A stretch of 64,000 nucleotides of DNA from IMG/VR virus record IMGVR_UViG_3300023184_000070, positions 22,776 to 86,775 of that record; one strand, 5' to 3'. The stretch is from a virus. A model generated the notes under the pieces. That model ran no database searches, had not been told where the DNA came from, and was given only the letters and a program-made list of their open reading frames with translations. A program made the translations under genes and the position numbers. Positions 632-15,137 of the stretch are shown piece by piece (the stretch's first letter is position 1; the number at the start of each line of letters is the position of its first letter).

Positions 632-1117
632 TTAAACTGGATTTGGATCTTGTGATGTAAACGACGTAATCCACCATGTGCCAGTTCCGGCATCAAATGT
701 GAAGGTCCAAACGGCATTTCCCCATTCACGACTGTAGTCAGTGGTGTCTTCAATAGTAGTTTCGCCGCCCGGTTGCATGTAGATGCTGTGATATGTTTGA
801 GCATTTACAGCGTCACGTTTGATAATGTATTGTTTTCCGTCTACCGCAGTTTGTGGTAGATATACAGTAGTGCCACGATAGGTTACTGGATTAACAATAA
901 CAAAGTGATCCGATGGCAGTAGAGTATATTCATAATCATCGTCATTTGCTGTAACTCTTGTAACTTGTACTACACCAGTTACGCCGCCTGCTGATACACC
1001 ATCGCTAACACGCAAAGCTGGTGTTGATGGATCATAAAACATGTCACCTGCGTGACCAACGTGAGTGTCGGCGTTGTCATTTACATGCTTGTAATGTATT
1101 TTTCTTGTGTTTGCCAT
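632..1117 (-). CDS. probable small virion structural protein
   Basis: This 161-residue protein is not recognised as a named family. It starts MANTRKIHYKHVNDN, then shows GDMFYDPSTPALRVSDG, a pattern common near the N-terminus of phage tail or decoration proteins in which a short segment describes a beta-strand pair. The C-terminal half (WTFTFDAGTGTWWITSF) is beta-rich. A strong ribosome binding site (AAGGAGAAAAC) lies just upstream of the ATG. A leader of about 87 bases separates the start from a late-promoter-like AATAAATA on the minus strand at 1212-1205. It lies 23 bases upstream of the structural gene cut by the left edge, so the two are likely cotranscribed. Confidence 0.6.
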   Translation of the reverse strand: MANTRKIHYKHVNDNADTHVGHAGDMFYDPSTPALRVSDGVSAGGVTGVVQVTRVTANDDDYEYTLLPSDHFVIVNPVTYRGTTVYLPQTAVDGKQYIIKRDAVNAQTYHSIYMQPGGETTIEDTTDYSREWGNAVWTFTFDAGTGTWWITSFTSQDPNPV

Positions 1118-1204
1118 TTTGTTTTCTCCTTGTGAAACACGGCGTTCTAGGCCGTACGCGGTTGGATTTCCGCATAAGACTCACACCATGTGAATCGTAC
1201 TAGA

Positions 1205-10966: not shown

Positions 10967-11830
10967 ATGGAAACAACTACTTTACCGAATACCGCCGCTA
11001 ATCCCTTAGCCAAGTACTTTAGACAACCTGCAATTTACATTAAACTACCTGGGGCAGGCAAATTCTGGGCAGAAGGGTCACTGAATTTGCCAGTCAACGG
11101 TGAAATTCCCATTTATCCCATGACTACTAGGGATGAAGTTACGCTGAGAACTCCAGATGCACTCATGAATGGTAGCGGTGTGGTCAGTGTAATCGAAAGC
11201 TGCTGCCCAAACATTGTTGATGCGTGGAAAACCCCCACAGTAGATGTAGATGCTATATTGATTGCTATTCGCATTGCCAGCTACGGACAGCAGATGGATG
11301 TCGAAACCACTTGCCCGCACTGCAACGAAAAAAACAGTCATGCGCTGGATTTGATCAATTGTCTAGGCGGAATACAATGCCCCGATTATTCACACCCAAT
11401 TGCAATTGACGAATTAAAAATAAAACTTAAATCTCAAATCTATTTTGGGTCAAATCAGACTGATGCTATCAATTTTGAAGAACAAAAAATGATACAGGCC
11501 GTAAATGACTCTGCTATGGCAGAACCAGACAAGATGCAGCTAGTGGCCAAGAGCATGCAGCGCATAATTGAAATTGGGCTCGAGTCTGCTGCTCATTGCA
11601 CAGAATACATTGAAATTGAAGATGGTACTCGAGTACGTGATGTTGAGTACATCAAAGAGTTTTATAATAATGCCAAAGGCAGCATATTAAAAACAGTCAA
11701 GGATCACCTGACTAAGTTTAATCAACAGGGTGCAGTCCCATCCCAACCAGTAGCTTGCTATGAGTGTAAGAAAGAATTCACAGTACCATTACAGTTTGAT
11801 TACGCAAGTTTTTTCGCGCAAGGCTTTTGA
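10967..11830 (+). CDS. 26: baseplate hub protein, gp26 family
   Basis: The 287-residue product belongs to the T4 gp26-type baseplate family: an N-terminal PAIYIKLPGAGKFW segment, then IPIYPMTTRDEVTLRTPDAL and a helical core. It carries two CxxC pairs, CPHC at about 116-119 and CYEC at about 264-267, which can form a zinc ribbon. I chose the ATG at 10967 (METTTLPN); an in-frame GTG at 10937 would begin almost at the late promoter and is less likely. The family forms the central hub on which the tail tube starts. It is longer than T4 gp26 (208 residues). The next gene overlaps its stop codon. Confidence 0.85.
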   Translation: METTTLPNTAANPLAKYFRQPAIYIKLPGAGKFWAEGSLNLPVNGEIPIYPMTTRDEVTLRTPDALMNGSGVVSVIESCCPNIVDAWKTPTVDVDAILIAIRIASYGQQMDVETTCPHCNEKNSHALDLINCLGGIQCPDYSHPIAIDELKIKLKSQIYFGSNQTDAINFEEQKMIQAVNDSAMAEPDKMQLVAKSMQRIIEIGLESAAHCTEYIEIEDGTRVRDVEYIKEFYNNAKGSILKTVKDHLTKFNQQGAVPSQPVACYECKKEFTVPLQFDYASFFAQGF

Positions 11831-12045
11831 CATTAACCAATGATGAAATCGTAGCCTTGCTAGATGGCTACGATAAAGAGTCAAAAGCCCTAAAAAAAGA
11901 AGCACTTACACTAGCATGGTACATGCGCGGAGGATTAAGTTACGAGGAAGCCATGTATCTCAGTCAGAACGAACGAGAAACCATTGGTAGAATTATCGAA
12001 AGCAACATGGAAGTTGTTAAGAAAACAGGTATGCCATTCTTCTAA
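11827..12045 (+). CDS. small conserved protein following gp26, TTG start
   Basis: The 72-residue product (TLTNDEIVALLDGYDKESKA...) is helical and charged and ends ...TGMPFF. The only in-frame start that preserves the N-terminal domain is TTG at 11827, which overlaps the gp26 stop codon as TTGA and has AAGG five bases upstream; the first in-frame ATG would remove 27 residues. Genes of this type follow gp26 in related phages, in my recollection, with unknown function; they may assist hub assembly as gp51 does in T4, but nothing in the sequence proves that. Confidence 0.7.
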   Translation: MTLTNDEIVALLDGYDKESKALKKEALTLAWYMRGGLSYEEAMYLSQNERETIGRIIESNMEVVKKTGMPFF

Positions 12046-12120
12046 TCGCATAACTTATCCAATTTAACCTGCAGAATAAACTACTATACAATCAAGAAAC
12101 CCATCTACCTAAATAAATTT

Positions 12121-12135
12121 ACCACTAACAGTGGT
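12121..12135 (+). other. short hairpin before the ribosome binding site
   Basis: ACCAC TAACA GTGGT forms a perfect 5-bp stem-loop about 18 bases upstream of the start at 12154, just before the AAGGAGA ribosome binding site. It might protect the 5' end of the mRNA or tune translation. Confidence 0.4.
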
Positions 12136-12153
12136 TTATAAGGAGATTACAAG

Positions 12154-12387
12154 ATGGATATTCTTGCAAATGTAAAAAAATGGGCTAGCAATCTAGCAGA
12201 CGCAGGCGTGAGCGTAATTGCTCTAGCCATTGTACTGGAAATTTTATTTAAAGGGACTGTAATCCCATTTTTCCCAGTAGGTTCAGTTATCACTAACGTG
12301 ACCACAATCATCGGTGCTTTAGGTTCCCAAGGACTAGTAGGACTAGTTGCTATTTGGGTATTATACGGTATCTGGAAAAACAAGTAA
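12154..12387 (+). CDS. small membrane protein, holin-like candidate
   Basis: The 77-residue protein has a short amphipathic N-terminus (MDILANVKKWASNL), a hydrophobic segment at about 18-40, a polar Gly/Val/Thr turn, and a second hydrophobic segment at about 50-73 ending in the charged IWKNK. Two membrane passes with a charged C-terminus are typical of small holins, but no lysin gene is adjacent, so it could equally be another membrane or virion protein. A very strong AAGGAGA ribosome binding site precedes the ATG, the gene stands alone, and a hairpin terminator follows, which together suggest high expression. Confidence 0.6.
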   Translation: MDILANVKKWASNLADAGVSVIALAIVLEILFKGTVIPFFPVGSVITNVTTIIGALGSQGLVGLVAIWVLYGIWKNK

Positions 12388-12398
12388 ACTTGTATCTA

Positions 12399-12441
12399 GC
12401 AAAAGAAAGACAACATGCTCATTTGTGTGTTTCTTTCTTTA
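12399..12441. terminator. bidirectional terminator
   Basis: AAAGAAA-g-ACA pairs with TGT-g-TTTCTTT around a loop of about 13 bases. The plus strand runs on into TTTCTTTCTTT and the minus strand into TTTCTTTT, so the hairpin can end both the small membrane-protein transcript and any minus-strand transcript coming through the 12442-12849 region. Confidence 0.6.
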
Positions 12442-12849
12442 TCTCTATATAAGACTTCTTACAGAAGTCTGTTGTTTCGCTATCGCTCACAACATTATTC
12501 TCTATCTTTAATGGATTAGTATCATCCAGATTAACTGGTCATAATTCACCGTATGCACGGTGAATTGAAAAGGCATCATCCGAGTAGCCCAGTCATCTAT
12601 TCTAATGAGATTGCCTTGCGGCGCGGAGGCGGTTGACCGGTACCCCCTACTCAAGCTTCACATATCAACGGAACCCTAGTGATCCGGAATAGACCCAAAT
12701 CCTATAGGCTGAGGTTGCATCTTTTTCGCATAGCCTCAATCATTTATTACCTTAAGTTAGTAATTTTCTTTGGCATCCAAGATCCGGACCGGGTATCTCA
12801 CCGTTCCTCAATGGAGCGTGGCCTAACCACGCACAGCGCCTATGATGTA
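12442..12849 (-). ncRNA. candidate structured non-coding RNA region
   Basis: No reading frame here looks like a real protein, yet the stretch is rich in perfect inverted repeats: AGACTTCT/AGAAGTCT (12452-12470), AATTCACCGT/ACGGTGAATT (12543-12566), GCGTGG/CCACGC (12816-12832), GAGTAG (12582-12587) with CTACTC (12647-12652), TGAGG/CCTCA (12710-12738) and GCCT/AGGC (12613-12630). The segments at 12534-12540 and 12635-12641 can also pair over 7 bp, which would cross the GAGTAG helix as a pseudoknot. GATCCGGA occurs twice, exactly 100 bases apart. It is locally GC-richer than its surroundings. It lies directly behind the GIY-YIG gene and ends at a minus-strand-competent terminator, so I assign it to the minus strand; the strand is not certain. 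It does not match the group I intron, tRNA, tmRNA or RNase P core patterns I looked for. Confidence 0.5.
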
Positions 12850-13308
12850 TTAACTTGTTGGACTTTGTGTCTTTGGGAGATTGATTTTGTTTATAATGTG
12901 TGAGCCATGTACCCTGCAACTTATCTGTCCATTATAATAATCTTGTGACTCTAAGACCTTGCGGTCAAATTGTTCACGTGCTTCAATGTAGGAGCACAGG
13001 GCTTTTGATGAGCAGTAGCACAAGATCTCTCTCTGGAACTTGTCTGCCCCCAGCAATTCTACATCCCGCCGCAACTCATCGTTGCTGCCGTAGTATTCTT
13101 GCCAGTCACTGTCGATCTTGCTGCGTATCTTCTTTTTCTTCTTGATCCCGTTCTTTTGCTTGACCACACGATATGTGGTCTTGGCAAATTTGGCTAGCTT
13201 TTTGCCCACGTACTTTCTGTCTGTGGCGGTATTTGTGATAAGATACACAAAACCTACACAGTCTTCGGGTAATTGTTCAACGGGCATATTCTGATAGAAC
13301 CAAGTCAT
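12850..13308 (-). CDS. GIY-YIG family endonuclease
   Basis: The 152-residue product shows the GIY-YIG nuclease layout: GFVYLITN (19-26) and RKYVGKK (31-37) replace the name-giving GIY and YIG strands, EYYGSNDEL follows at 71-79, and YIEAREQF (107-114) carries the likely catalytic Glu at 109, with YYNG near 124. A Lys-rich loop at 51-62 is probably DNA-contacting. Free-standing genes of this type are common in T4-like phages and often behave as homing endonucleases. No Shine-Dalgarno is visible; the ATG at 13308 is preceded at once by a hairpin (13314-13332), and M8 is an alternative start. It is separated from gp46 by 59 bases. Confidence 0.85.
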   Translation of the reverse strand: MTWFYQNMPVEQLPEDCVGFVYLITNTATDRKYVGKKLAKFAKTTYRVVKQKNGIKKKKKIRSKIDSDWQEYYGSNDELRRDVELLGADKFQREILCYCSSKALCSYIEAREQFDRKVLESQDYYNGQISCRVHGSHIINKINLPKTQSPTS

Positions 13309-13313
13309 ATTTG

Positions 13314-13332
13314 ATACAGCAAGAGGCTGTAT
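13314..13332 (-). promoter_or_regulatory. hairpin at the start of the GIY-YIG gene
   Basis: ATACAGC and GCTGTAT form a perfect 7-bp stem with a 5-base loop ending 5 bases upstream of the ATG on the minus strand. It is not followed by a T run, so it is not a good terminator for gp46. It may limit ribosome access; T4 homing endonuclease genes are known to have start-masking hairpins. Confidence 0.45.
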
Positions 13333-13367
13333 TATAGTTATGACTCATGCAGTCTGACCTGCTAAAT

Positions 13368-15137
13368 TTATACAGTTTCAACATCGGTATTGTAGGTGGT
13401 AAACCCATTTTCTTTGACCACAGTCAAGATGTTGTTGACCCGCCCGGCTAGTTCATCTTTGTGACTGACCAGCCAAATGCTCTTGTGAGCTTCTCTGCTC
13501 ATGCGTTTTAGGATAGCCAGTGCGCTTTCCACACCCGATGCATCCATACCCGAGTCTACTAGTTCATCAATGAACAAAAGATTGACAGGTTGATACAAAC
13601 TTTCCCAAACATCACGGAACGCCCACGACAGACTCAGTATCAGTCTATTGCGCTCGCCCCGGCTGAGGTTGTCAAAGTCTAACTCTCTGCCCAATTCAGT
13701 TATGCTCACTGTGAGATCGTTGTTGAACTTGACCACATGTGGCAAGCCAATACGGTCCAAGTACTGCCCTAGTCTTGCGTTCAAATAACTTAAATTTTGA
13801 TCAATAATGCGTTTGCGTATAAAACTGTCTTTGTTGGTCAACAGTTTCAATAAAAATTCTTGATGATCCCGGACATTGCCTAACTCGTTGATAGTGTCGT
13901 AAGTAACAGTCTCTAAGGCCTGTGTGCTCATTTCTTCTATCTGTTCTGCATATGGATCTGCTTCTGCGTGTTTGCTGGCAATTTGGCTTAATATATTAGC
14001 CATGCTGCTGCGATGTTCAAATGCATCGCTCTCGCGATCGTAGTAGACTCGAGGCTGCGCACCTGCCGCGCCTATTTCTGCTAGCGCACCAGTCAGTTCA
14101 ATCCATTGACCGTTGGTGGCCAATACCTGTAGTGCAGCTTCTTGTAATTCTTTTTGTTTCTTGGTCATGGCAGTCGCATGATCACCATCGTGCAGATCCT
14201 GCCCACATGCATGACATCGGTGATCCTCTAGTGCTGCAATCTCACGTTGCAGTCGTTCAACTACTTTGTTTTCGCGATCCTCGTCCAGCTCGGCACGTTT
14301 AACGGCCTTGGTTAGGTCAGAGATATCTTTCACCTGCTGATTGTATTCTGTTAGCGCCTTGTGTGCTGCCAGCTCAGCTTCGATATCTATTAGACTCAAC
14401 TCGTCGTAGCCCTTTTGCAAGTATGCTAAATCGCTGTCGTGCTTCTTCTGCCACAACACCTGTCTACGCTTAAAACTTTCAATCTGTTCTTGTATGCGAT
14501 GGTTGGCATCTGTCACTGCTTTGATGCGGAACTCTTCTTGCTGTATAGCATCTTTAGTGGCTTTGTTTAGTTCTTTAAGACGCTCTGCTTTTTCGCTTAG
14601 TACTGTAATGCCCAGCAATTGTTCAATAATAGTGCGCTGATCGTTGGCTTTCAGGCTGAGAAACGGCTCGGTATAGGTGTTTAATGCTACGATATGGCGG
14701 AACATATCCCAGCTCATGCCCAGCATGCGTTCTATGTCTGCTTGAGTTTCTCTGCTGTCGCCCTGACTCTCGTCGGTGATCTCACGCTCAACATTGCCTA
14801 CATAAAAGGCCATGGTGTTGGGCTTGCGACCACGCTCAATACGATAGTCAGTGCCGTCCTTCTCAAACTCAACAGTGACAATCATGCCCTTGCCGTTGGT
14901 TTTGTTGATCAGGTTGTCTTTGCGTATGTTGGTCAGTGCAGCACCATACAGGGCATAGCTGAGTGCATTGATGATAGTGGTCTTGCCGGTACCGTTCCTA
15001 CTGCCAGAATCATCCCCGCCTAGATCAATGTTTTCACCCAGGACCAGTGTGAGATCCTTGCGGTCAAAGTCCACAGCCTGCGTGACATTGCCCACGCTCA
15101 TGAAATTCTTAACAGTCAAATTCTTGATACGGATCAT
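13368..15137 (-). CDS. 46: recombination endonuclease subunit gp46 (Rad50-like)
   Basis: The 589-residue product is the SMC/Rad50-type ATPase that pairs with gp47 to resect DNA ends for recombination-dependent replication and host DNA breakdown. The N-terminal Walker A is GSRNGTGKTT (45-54), the coiled-coil middle is broken by a CHAC zinc hook, and the C-terminus carries the ABC signature LSRGERNRL and Walker B LLFIDELVDSGMD with a D-loop. Length is close to T4 gp46 (560). It overlaps gp47 by ATGA, so the two subunits are translated together. Confidence 0.95.
   Translation of the reverse strand: MIRIKNLTVKNFMSVGNVTQAVDFDRKDLTLVLGENIDLGGDDSGSRNGTGKTTIINALSYALYGAALTNIRKDNLINKTNGKGMIVTVEFEKDGTDYRIERGRKPNTMAFYVGNVEREITDESQGDSRETQADIERMLGMSWDMFRHIVALNTYTEPFLSLKANDQRTIIEQLLGITVLSEKAERLKELNKATKDAIQQEEFRIKAVTDANHRIQEQIESFKRRQVLWQKKHDSDLAYLQKGYDELSLIDIEAELAAHKALTEYNQQVKDISDLTKAVKRAELDEDRENKVVERLQREIAALEDHRCHACGQDLHDGDHATAMTKKQKELQEAALQVLATNGQWIELTGALAEIGAAGAQPRVYYDRESDAFEHRSSMANILSQIASKHAEADPYAEQIEEMSTQALETVTYDTINELGNVRDHQEFLLKLLTNKDSFIRKRIIDQNLSYLNARLGQYLDRIGLPHVVKFNNDLTVSITELGRELDFDNLSRGERNRLILSLSWAFRDVWESLYQPVNLLFIDELVDSGMDASGVESALAILKRMSREAHKSIWLVSHKDELAGRVNNILTVVKENGFTTYNTDVETV

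Follow-up and report, generated by a model that had tools for sequence, protein, structure and literature searches.

A probable structured RNA with twin heptamers that change in concert in freshwater T4-like phages and its relationship to the bacterial Polynucleobacter-1 motif

Directly 3′ of a GIY-YIG nuclease gene in a freshwater T4-like phage, we find a conserved, structured non-coding RNA that is very probably encoded by the minus strand and related to RNAs bearing the Rfam family RF01718 (Polynucleobacter-1). Within each such RNA a heptamer occurs twice; its letters are arbitrary, yet the two copies are identical and change together from one phage to another. The phage is represented by a 64,000-nt stretch of an IMG/VR record (the window), and the features discussed here are collected in Table 1.

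Table 1. Positions of the RNA, its structural elements and the flanking genes in the window
Feature	Position	Strand	Remarks
Gap in the freshwater T4-like phage	12388..12849		between two intact genes
77-aa gene	12154..12387	+	left flank of gap; convergent with the GIY-YIG gene
SegE-like GIY-YIG gene	12850..13308	-	PF19835, E 2.5e-32; directly upstream of the RNA, same strand
Conserved structured non-coding RNA, subtype A (probable)	12518..12849	-	reads 12849 down to 12518
Hairpin at RNA 5′ end (GCGUGGUUAGGCCACGC)	12816..12832	-	covarying pairs 93-95 x 108-110
Hairpin of subtype A 5′ domain	12706..12740	-	columns 191 x 217: C-G, G-C, U-A; 41/41 paired
Long-range helix a, UCUAUUC x GAAUAGA	12687..12693 x 12596..12602	-	compensatory changes at all 6 modelled pairs
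Pseudoknot GUUGA x UCAAC	12665..12669 x 12632..12636	-	loop of hairpin c to 5′ side
Helix b, UGAG x CUCA	12650..12653 x 12606..12609	-	around hairpin c; UGAG/CUCA to AGAG/CUCU swaps
Hairpin c, GGGG (12646-12643) x CCUC (12629-12626)	12626..12646	-	near-invariant loop UACCGGUCAACCG
First heptamer GGAUGAU	12575..12581	-	box ACUC-N7-G (plus 12574-12585)
Hairpin g (AAUUCACCGUGCAUACGGUGAAUU)	12543..12566	-	between the two heptamers; GCCC...GGGC stems instead in subtype B
Second heptamer GGAUGAU	12521..12527	-	box AUCU-N7-A (plus 12520-12531)
Tail hairpin, recurrent loop UGAGCGAUAGCGAAA	12471..12493	-	tail shared by most phages and by the chromosomal RF01718 loci
Terminator-like hairpin	12452..12470	+	end of convergent plus-strand operon; only such site in the gap

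None of the ORFs of the gap matches a Pfam family, stop codons are present in all six frames, and the lengths of the aligned homologues spread over all three values modulo three. A conserved open frame is not kept and the gap is non-coding, as the original prediction had it in stating that no credible gene is present. That prediction, of a structured and pseudoknotted non-coding RNA beside a GIY-YIG gene, is also borne out by folding, in which the gap beats 100/100 dinucleotide shuffles on either strand (z of -3.8 for plus and -3.6 for minus), and by the homologues and covariation presented below. The Infernal search against Rfam that it had proposed matched no known class: neither RF01718 nor any other family is represented in the gap by a hit at the gathering threshold, or at E≤10 over positions 11800-13400. 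Its statement that group I intron, tRNA, tmRNA and RNase P cores are lacking agrees with the absence of ARAGORN or Rfam matches to any of these; group II introns can likewise be set aside, there being no Rfam intron match and the gap lying between two intact genes. Its label of “undescribed” holds for the RNA of the window, with no Rfam match at that cut-off, but not for sister phages, which carry RF01718 as the 5′ domain. The window as a whole contains no tRNA genes. A second structured RNA, the freshwater-2 RNA of Rfam (RF02980; 71.4 bits), lies before an ORF at window positions 1115-1195 on the minus strand.

Homologues of the RNA are found in well over 100 viral contigs. By blastn, the gap sequence is present in about 60 of the first 80 IMG/VR loci recruited via the nuclease protein, and a scan of IMG/VR with a pattern of the core GGCGGTTGNCCGGTACC yielded at least 120 stretches. 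The sequences were grouped into subtype A (43 sequences, including the window), subtype B (90 sequences) and a few remote members, with one copy in each phage genome examined. The 3′ half of subtype B is recognised by the subtype A profile, and window positions 12671-12519 conversely by that of subtype B (E 1e-14). Overall, the sequence comparisons show a modular RNA superfamily with a common 3′ domain and exchangeable 5′ domains. Against cultured phages, neither subtype gave a blastn match other than a trivial one of 27 bases, and the cultured-phage relatives of the GIY-YIG gene are without a comparable gap. Matches of the core pattern in cell genomes were discarded, as their number approximates the chance expectation and almost all are without profile support.

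Several smaller sets of loci were also observed. Those designated L011, L075 and L079, lying downstream of GIY-YIG, form a third phage subtype, which starts near GGTTGGCAGGCCGG, has another 5′ part and displays ACAUGAA twice. The common 3′ domain of L090, L095 and L104 is preceded by yet another 5′ domain, with UGUUUGGUCGAGG.UGCUCGACUC or a close variant, which is a further case of 5′ domain exchange. L122 and L143 hold the core in a distinct, mutually similar context with GTACAGGCAGTTTCCACAGA upstream; no N7 boxes were found in L122, and the core of these two is possibly that of another RNA with the same hairpin, or a chance occurrence.

The assignment to the minus strand, which we hold with high confidence, rests on comparative folding. 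RNAalifold gives -149 kcal/mol for the minus strand of subtype A as against -125 for the plus strand, and -147 against -129 for subtype B. The ratio of G-U to A-C cells is 579:40 on the minus and 299:128 on the plus strand in subtype A, and 889:192 and 547:318, respectively, in subtype B, whereas the excess of G-U with the structure held fixed is smaller and modest (157 G-U vs. 85 A-C). For instance, the G-U of hairpin c in subtype A would be an A-C on the plus strand. Moreover, in subtype B the minus-equivalent strand is the one recognised by the RF01718 model, whose scoring takes G-U pairs into account. The original prediction had folded the plus strand; an RNA so drawn was rejected, since its comparative fold is less stable and its A-C mismatches are more numerous. 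The subtype A profile recovers the window at E 1e-108 with nhmmer, the window being one of its 43 seed rows, and the covariance model R1 scores 117.6 bits over 12712-12518 of the minus strand, the window being one of its 63 seed rows. Against the minus strand speaks the failure to find a convincing promoter for the RNA there.

Compensatory changes, on whose presence in homologues the original prediction had been made to depend, are abundant. Under a tree-simulated null, which follows R-scape in simplified form and gives approximate E-values, subtype B has more than 15 canonical pairs at E<0.1, subtype A has nine at E<2, of which seven are at <0.1, and helix b covaries (columns 275 x 324) at an E of about 0. 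In the named structure of the 3′ domain, with its two pseudoknots, 83.6% of the cells are paired, and its covariation score is 0.313, compared with 0.156 ± 0.006 for shuffled and at most 0.122 for slid controls. Helix a runs from the loop of an upstream hairpin, and hairpin c is paired in 99.6% of cells with exchanges between A-U, U-A and G-U. The pseudoknot takes the forms GUUGA/UCAAC, GUUGU/ACAAC, GUCA/UGAC and GUCG/CGAC.

The particular helices drawn originally fared less well. That between 12534-12540 and 12635-12641 is paired in just 239/301 cells, even with the wobbles of both strands allowed. The other, between 12582-12587 and 12647-12652, is paired in 239 of the 248 subtype A cells but is not general in subtype B, and it is unsupported because 12650-12652 are also claimed by helix b, where compensatory changes occur. 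The reported exact repeat of GATCCGGA is present at 12681 and 12781, but both copies vary among homologues; the window contains this sequence five times against 0.4 expected. Finally, the terminator placed at the far end corresponds to the hairpin 12816-12832, which is without a U-run; the terminator-like site is instead the plus-strand hairpin 12452-12470.

Beyond the second heptamer, the RNA may extend via the tail hairpins to about 12452. The recurrent loop of the tail hairpin, UUUCGCUANCGCUCA on the plus and UGAGCGANAGCGAAA on the minus strand, ends phage and chromosomal copies alike. T-runs are found on the plus side in 48/138 tails of homologues and on the minus side in 15/138. This bias counts against the minus strand, but we read the plus-side runs as terminators of the convergent operon.

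Polynucleobacter-1 was put forward as a candidate motif from Burkholderiales and from fresh water or estuary (Weinberg et al. 2010, PMC2864571), the only paper naming it in the open-access literature that we searched. Its Rfam covariance model comprises 141 nt only and coincides with the first 141 nt, the 5′ domain, of subtype B, whose genomic site and strand are those of subtype A. RF01718 scores above the gathering threshold in the sister phages L153 (120 bits, E 2e-26), L159, L144, L119 and L063, the other scores recorded being 111, 110, 82 and 77 bits. The RNA of the window shares with the RF01718 RNAs the 3′ domain and the twin identical heptamers in ACUC-N7/AUCU-N7 boxes, whereas the 5′ domains are unrelated in sequence, that of subtype A having no demonstrable relation to RF01718. 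The chromosomal RF01718 loci, too, continue into the 3′ part, with an ACCGCC element, two N7 boxes and similar tail hairpins. This comparison shows that the published motif would be just the 5′ part of a longer predicted RNA.

In bacteria, the RF01718 cut-off is exceeded in three of 399 Burkholderiales genomes and in 19/186 genomes of one genus. A gene for a DUF6641 protein adjoins the RNA in 27/27 chromosomal loci (L409, L410, L411 and L413-L435, with the weak L412 included), and the two are divergent in the loci inspected; the window RNA, in contrast, has no DUF6641 nearby, and neither the 202 phage loci nor the phage genome pieces gave a DUF6641 profile match at E≤1. DUF6641 has no PDB relative detectable by sequence and no PADLOC match, and it is absent from the open-access literature searched. 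Judging from this gene context, DUF6641 and the RNA are an accessory two-part module of bacteria. Within one Burkholderiales genus, about 10% of species carry the pair. In L409 it is flanked by tyrosine recombinase genes (19-525 and 2289-2885), which suggests a location on a mobile island.

An unexpected feature of the superfamily is the rule obeyed by its heptamers. They are identical in 130/130 distinct phage RNAs found with the box pattern, in seven variants, where 23 identical pairs would be expected, and with no pattern imposed, all 131 readable rows of the alignment are identical, two rare words included. The N7 has undergone about 47 parsimony changes while the flanks of the boxes stay different. 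Among the pairs of the whole domain, the strongest covariation is that of the three varying heptamer columns, and it is not Watson-Crick: the same base stands on both sides (A/A, G/G or U/U), with no exceptions. The copies are separated by 47-61 nt in most RNAs, with a full range of 47-79. With a box pattern that presupposes the flanking letters, the remote phage words UGGUAAU (L090), ACGAAAU (L172) and AUGAAGA (L104) each occur twice, and 22 of the 25 chromosomal RF01718 copies are exact (AGCGAAA, AACAAAA, AUCAAAA, AGAGAAA, GGAGAAA or GGCGAAA), the remaining three differing by one or two letters. By chance the rule is rarely satisfied: 2.8 Mb of strand, in which about a dozen true RNAs are located, gave 15 matches. 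We know of no described counterpart of two identical but arbitrary heptamers.

That the copies are identical although their flanks are unlike and their spacing varies speaks against their pairing with each other. It also speaks against gene conversion, as the flanks (ACUC/G and AUCU/A) differ right at the borders. A target-site duplication left by an inserted hairpin is contradicted by the expectation that its copies would diverge and not change in concert. Nor does a CsrA-type GGA sponge fit, since GGA is not kept and AGA is present in nearly half the RNAs. Local folding places the first copy in a hairpin loop in 29/129 RNAs, compared with 10 with shuffled flanks, and lends no support to such a placement of the second; the idea that both heptamers lie in hairpin loops is thus weak for the former and without support for the latter. 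In the phage RNAs there is no complement of the heptamer at a fixed position in cis. Across 13 phage genomes or parts thereof no third site covaries, just the two boxes do, which speaks against a phage-encoded partner site with conserved flanks; and the own heptamer of a phage is not enriched genome-wide (observed/expected of 1.01 vs. 1.09 for other heptamers), which speaks against a promoter- or iteron-like word. These searches having revealed no partner, the candidates left are a host-encoded one and a protein. DUF6641 itself is unlikely to be the reader of the word, because the chromosomal heptamers differ from locus to locus while the DUF6641 proteins encoded there share 80-90% identity.

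With moderate confidence, we regard a trans-acting RNA, whose twin identical heptamers would be recognition elements for one changing partner, as the best explanation of these patterns as a whole. The mechanism proper, in which both heptamers engage a single partner, is a tentative proposal to which we give slightly less than even credence. The RNA would act in trans as a stand-alone molecule, perhaps released from a read-through transcript of the operon, and the two heptamers, serving as short seeds or baits for recognition, would each contact the same partner. This would most likely be a host RNA with which they base-pair; alternatively, they would be bound by two protomers of a single protein. 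Hosts would differ in the partner, so that both copies would be forced to change together. Since host bacteria carry a like RNA together with DUF6641 in accessory regions, competition with the host DUF6641-RNA module, or its subversion, is a possible role of the phage RNA.

Phages do possess decoy and antisense RNAs with paired short recognition segments, such as the c4 antisense RNA and the solitary CRISPR-repeat anti-CRISPR RNAs. The likeness would be one of working principle alone, namely a small phage RNA whose short recognition elements act in trans; here the candidate recognition heptamers are identical instead of being two different complements, and the searches above gave no target. 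The GOLLD and ROOL RNAs, with which the original prediction had drawn a parallel, belong to different families, as no covariance-model match to them was obtained. They are alike in being large phage RNAs with multiple pseudoknots, and GOLLD has a conserved 3′ region and a variable 5′ region (PMC12286853), resembling the conserved 3′ domain and variable 5′ domain of the present RNA, which differs from both in being smaller (330-400 nt) and in the absence of tRNA genes from the window.

The precedent of such RNAs raises an alternative without any outside partner, in which the heptamers contact each other or a second molecule of the same RNA in an RNA-only assembly like those of GOLLD, ROOL and OLE. 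All seven positions are identical in parallel register, the searches in cis and in phage genomes gave no partner, and large phage RNAs do form homo-oligomers, with OLE having a symmetric intermolecular A-A helix (PMC12286853). Nevertheless, homo-pairing of words as arbitrary as GGAUGAU, AUGAAGA and AGCGAAA, none of them self-complementary, corresponds to no known motif, and the spacing of the copies varies from 47 to 79 nt; we consider this alternative improbable. Co-evolving direct repeats are also typical of protein-bound DNA sites, and some chromosomal copies are near tyrosine recombinases, with integrase genes flanking the RNA of L409; the heptamers could accordingly be paired DNA sites, iteron-like or a recombinase overlap, for a sequence-specific protein in the RNA-encoding region. 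A spacing that in most cases ranges over 47-61 nt is not fixed to the helical turn, the boxes sit in a domain whose flanks show RNA covariation, and the lytic-type phage loci have no integrase beside the RNA in the genes compared, all of which makes DNA sites quite improbable. A region inactive in trans could instead stabilise or attenuate the gp46-GIY operon from its 3′ UTR, or terminate the convergent operons in both directions, a role that would suit the position between convergent transcripts and the terminator-like hairpins of the tail. Such a role requires neither the extent of the conserved tertiary structure nor the twin-heptamer rule, and the RNA is also found in other contexts (L090, L172, L095), the inspected chromosomal copies being divergent to DUF6641 and not in its 3′ UTR; it is, in our estimation, unlikely.

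The least probable reading, and one that is strongly disfavoured, makes the RNA a guide or cofactor of the GIY-YIG nuclease, in the manner of the omega RNA of IscB or TnpB. The stop codon of the nuclease gene marks the start of the RNA, which is on the same strand, the gene is found at 153/159 testable RNA loci, and a structured RNA abutting a nuclease gene recalls the HEARO-type omega RNAs. The order at the syntenic site is gp47-gp46-GIY-RNA followed by the hub operon, and since other neighbours are similarly constant (o72 in 115/118, hub in 105/108 and gp46 in 87/95), synteny suffices to explain the linkage. In L104, L145, L163, L090 and L172 the RNA occurs without the gene, in L009, L014, L054, L055, L058, L100, L154, L190 and L198 about 1-2 kb lie between the two, both intact, the GIY-YIG family occurs without the RNA in cultured phages (e.g., Melnitz), and the chromosomal relatives adjoin DUF6641. 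The obligatory nuclease linkage of an omega-type guide RNA is therefore not seen: the nuclease is dispensable and belongs to another family, and the RNA has two identical internal 7-mers in place of a variable guide at its end. The GIY-YIG gene is a syntenic neighbour and not a required partner. PHROG 447 and many GenBank records label the SegE-like GIY-YIG protein (12850-13308 and homologues) “NAD synthetase”, apparently a propagated mis-annotation.

Returning to the trans-acting RNA with twin recognition heptamers, its broadest form would be a new kind of RNA common to phages and an accessory bacterial DUF6641-RNA module, one that displays a freely variable 7-nt word twice and is retargeted in concert, with the phage copy opposing the host's module or replacing it; this is a possibility that we raise with considerable doubt. 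A motif that has been an orphan since 2010 nonetheless gains relatives in many freshwater phages, a constant DUF6641 neighbour in its chromosomal copies and the heptamer rule. The latter provides a search handle for members missed by sequence or covariance models and makes the function of the RNA directly testable.
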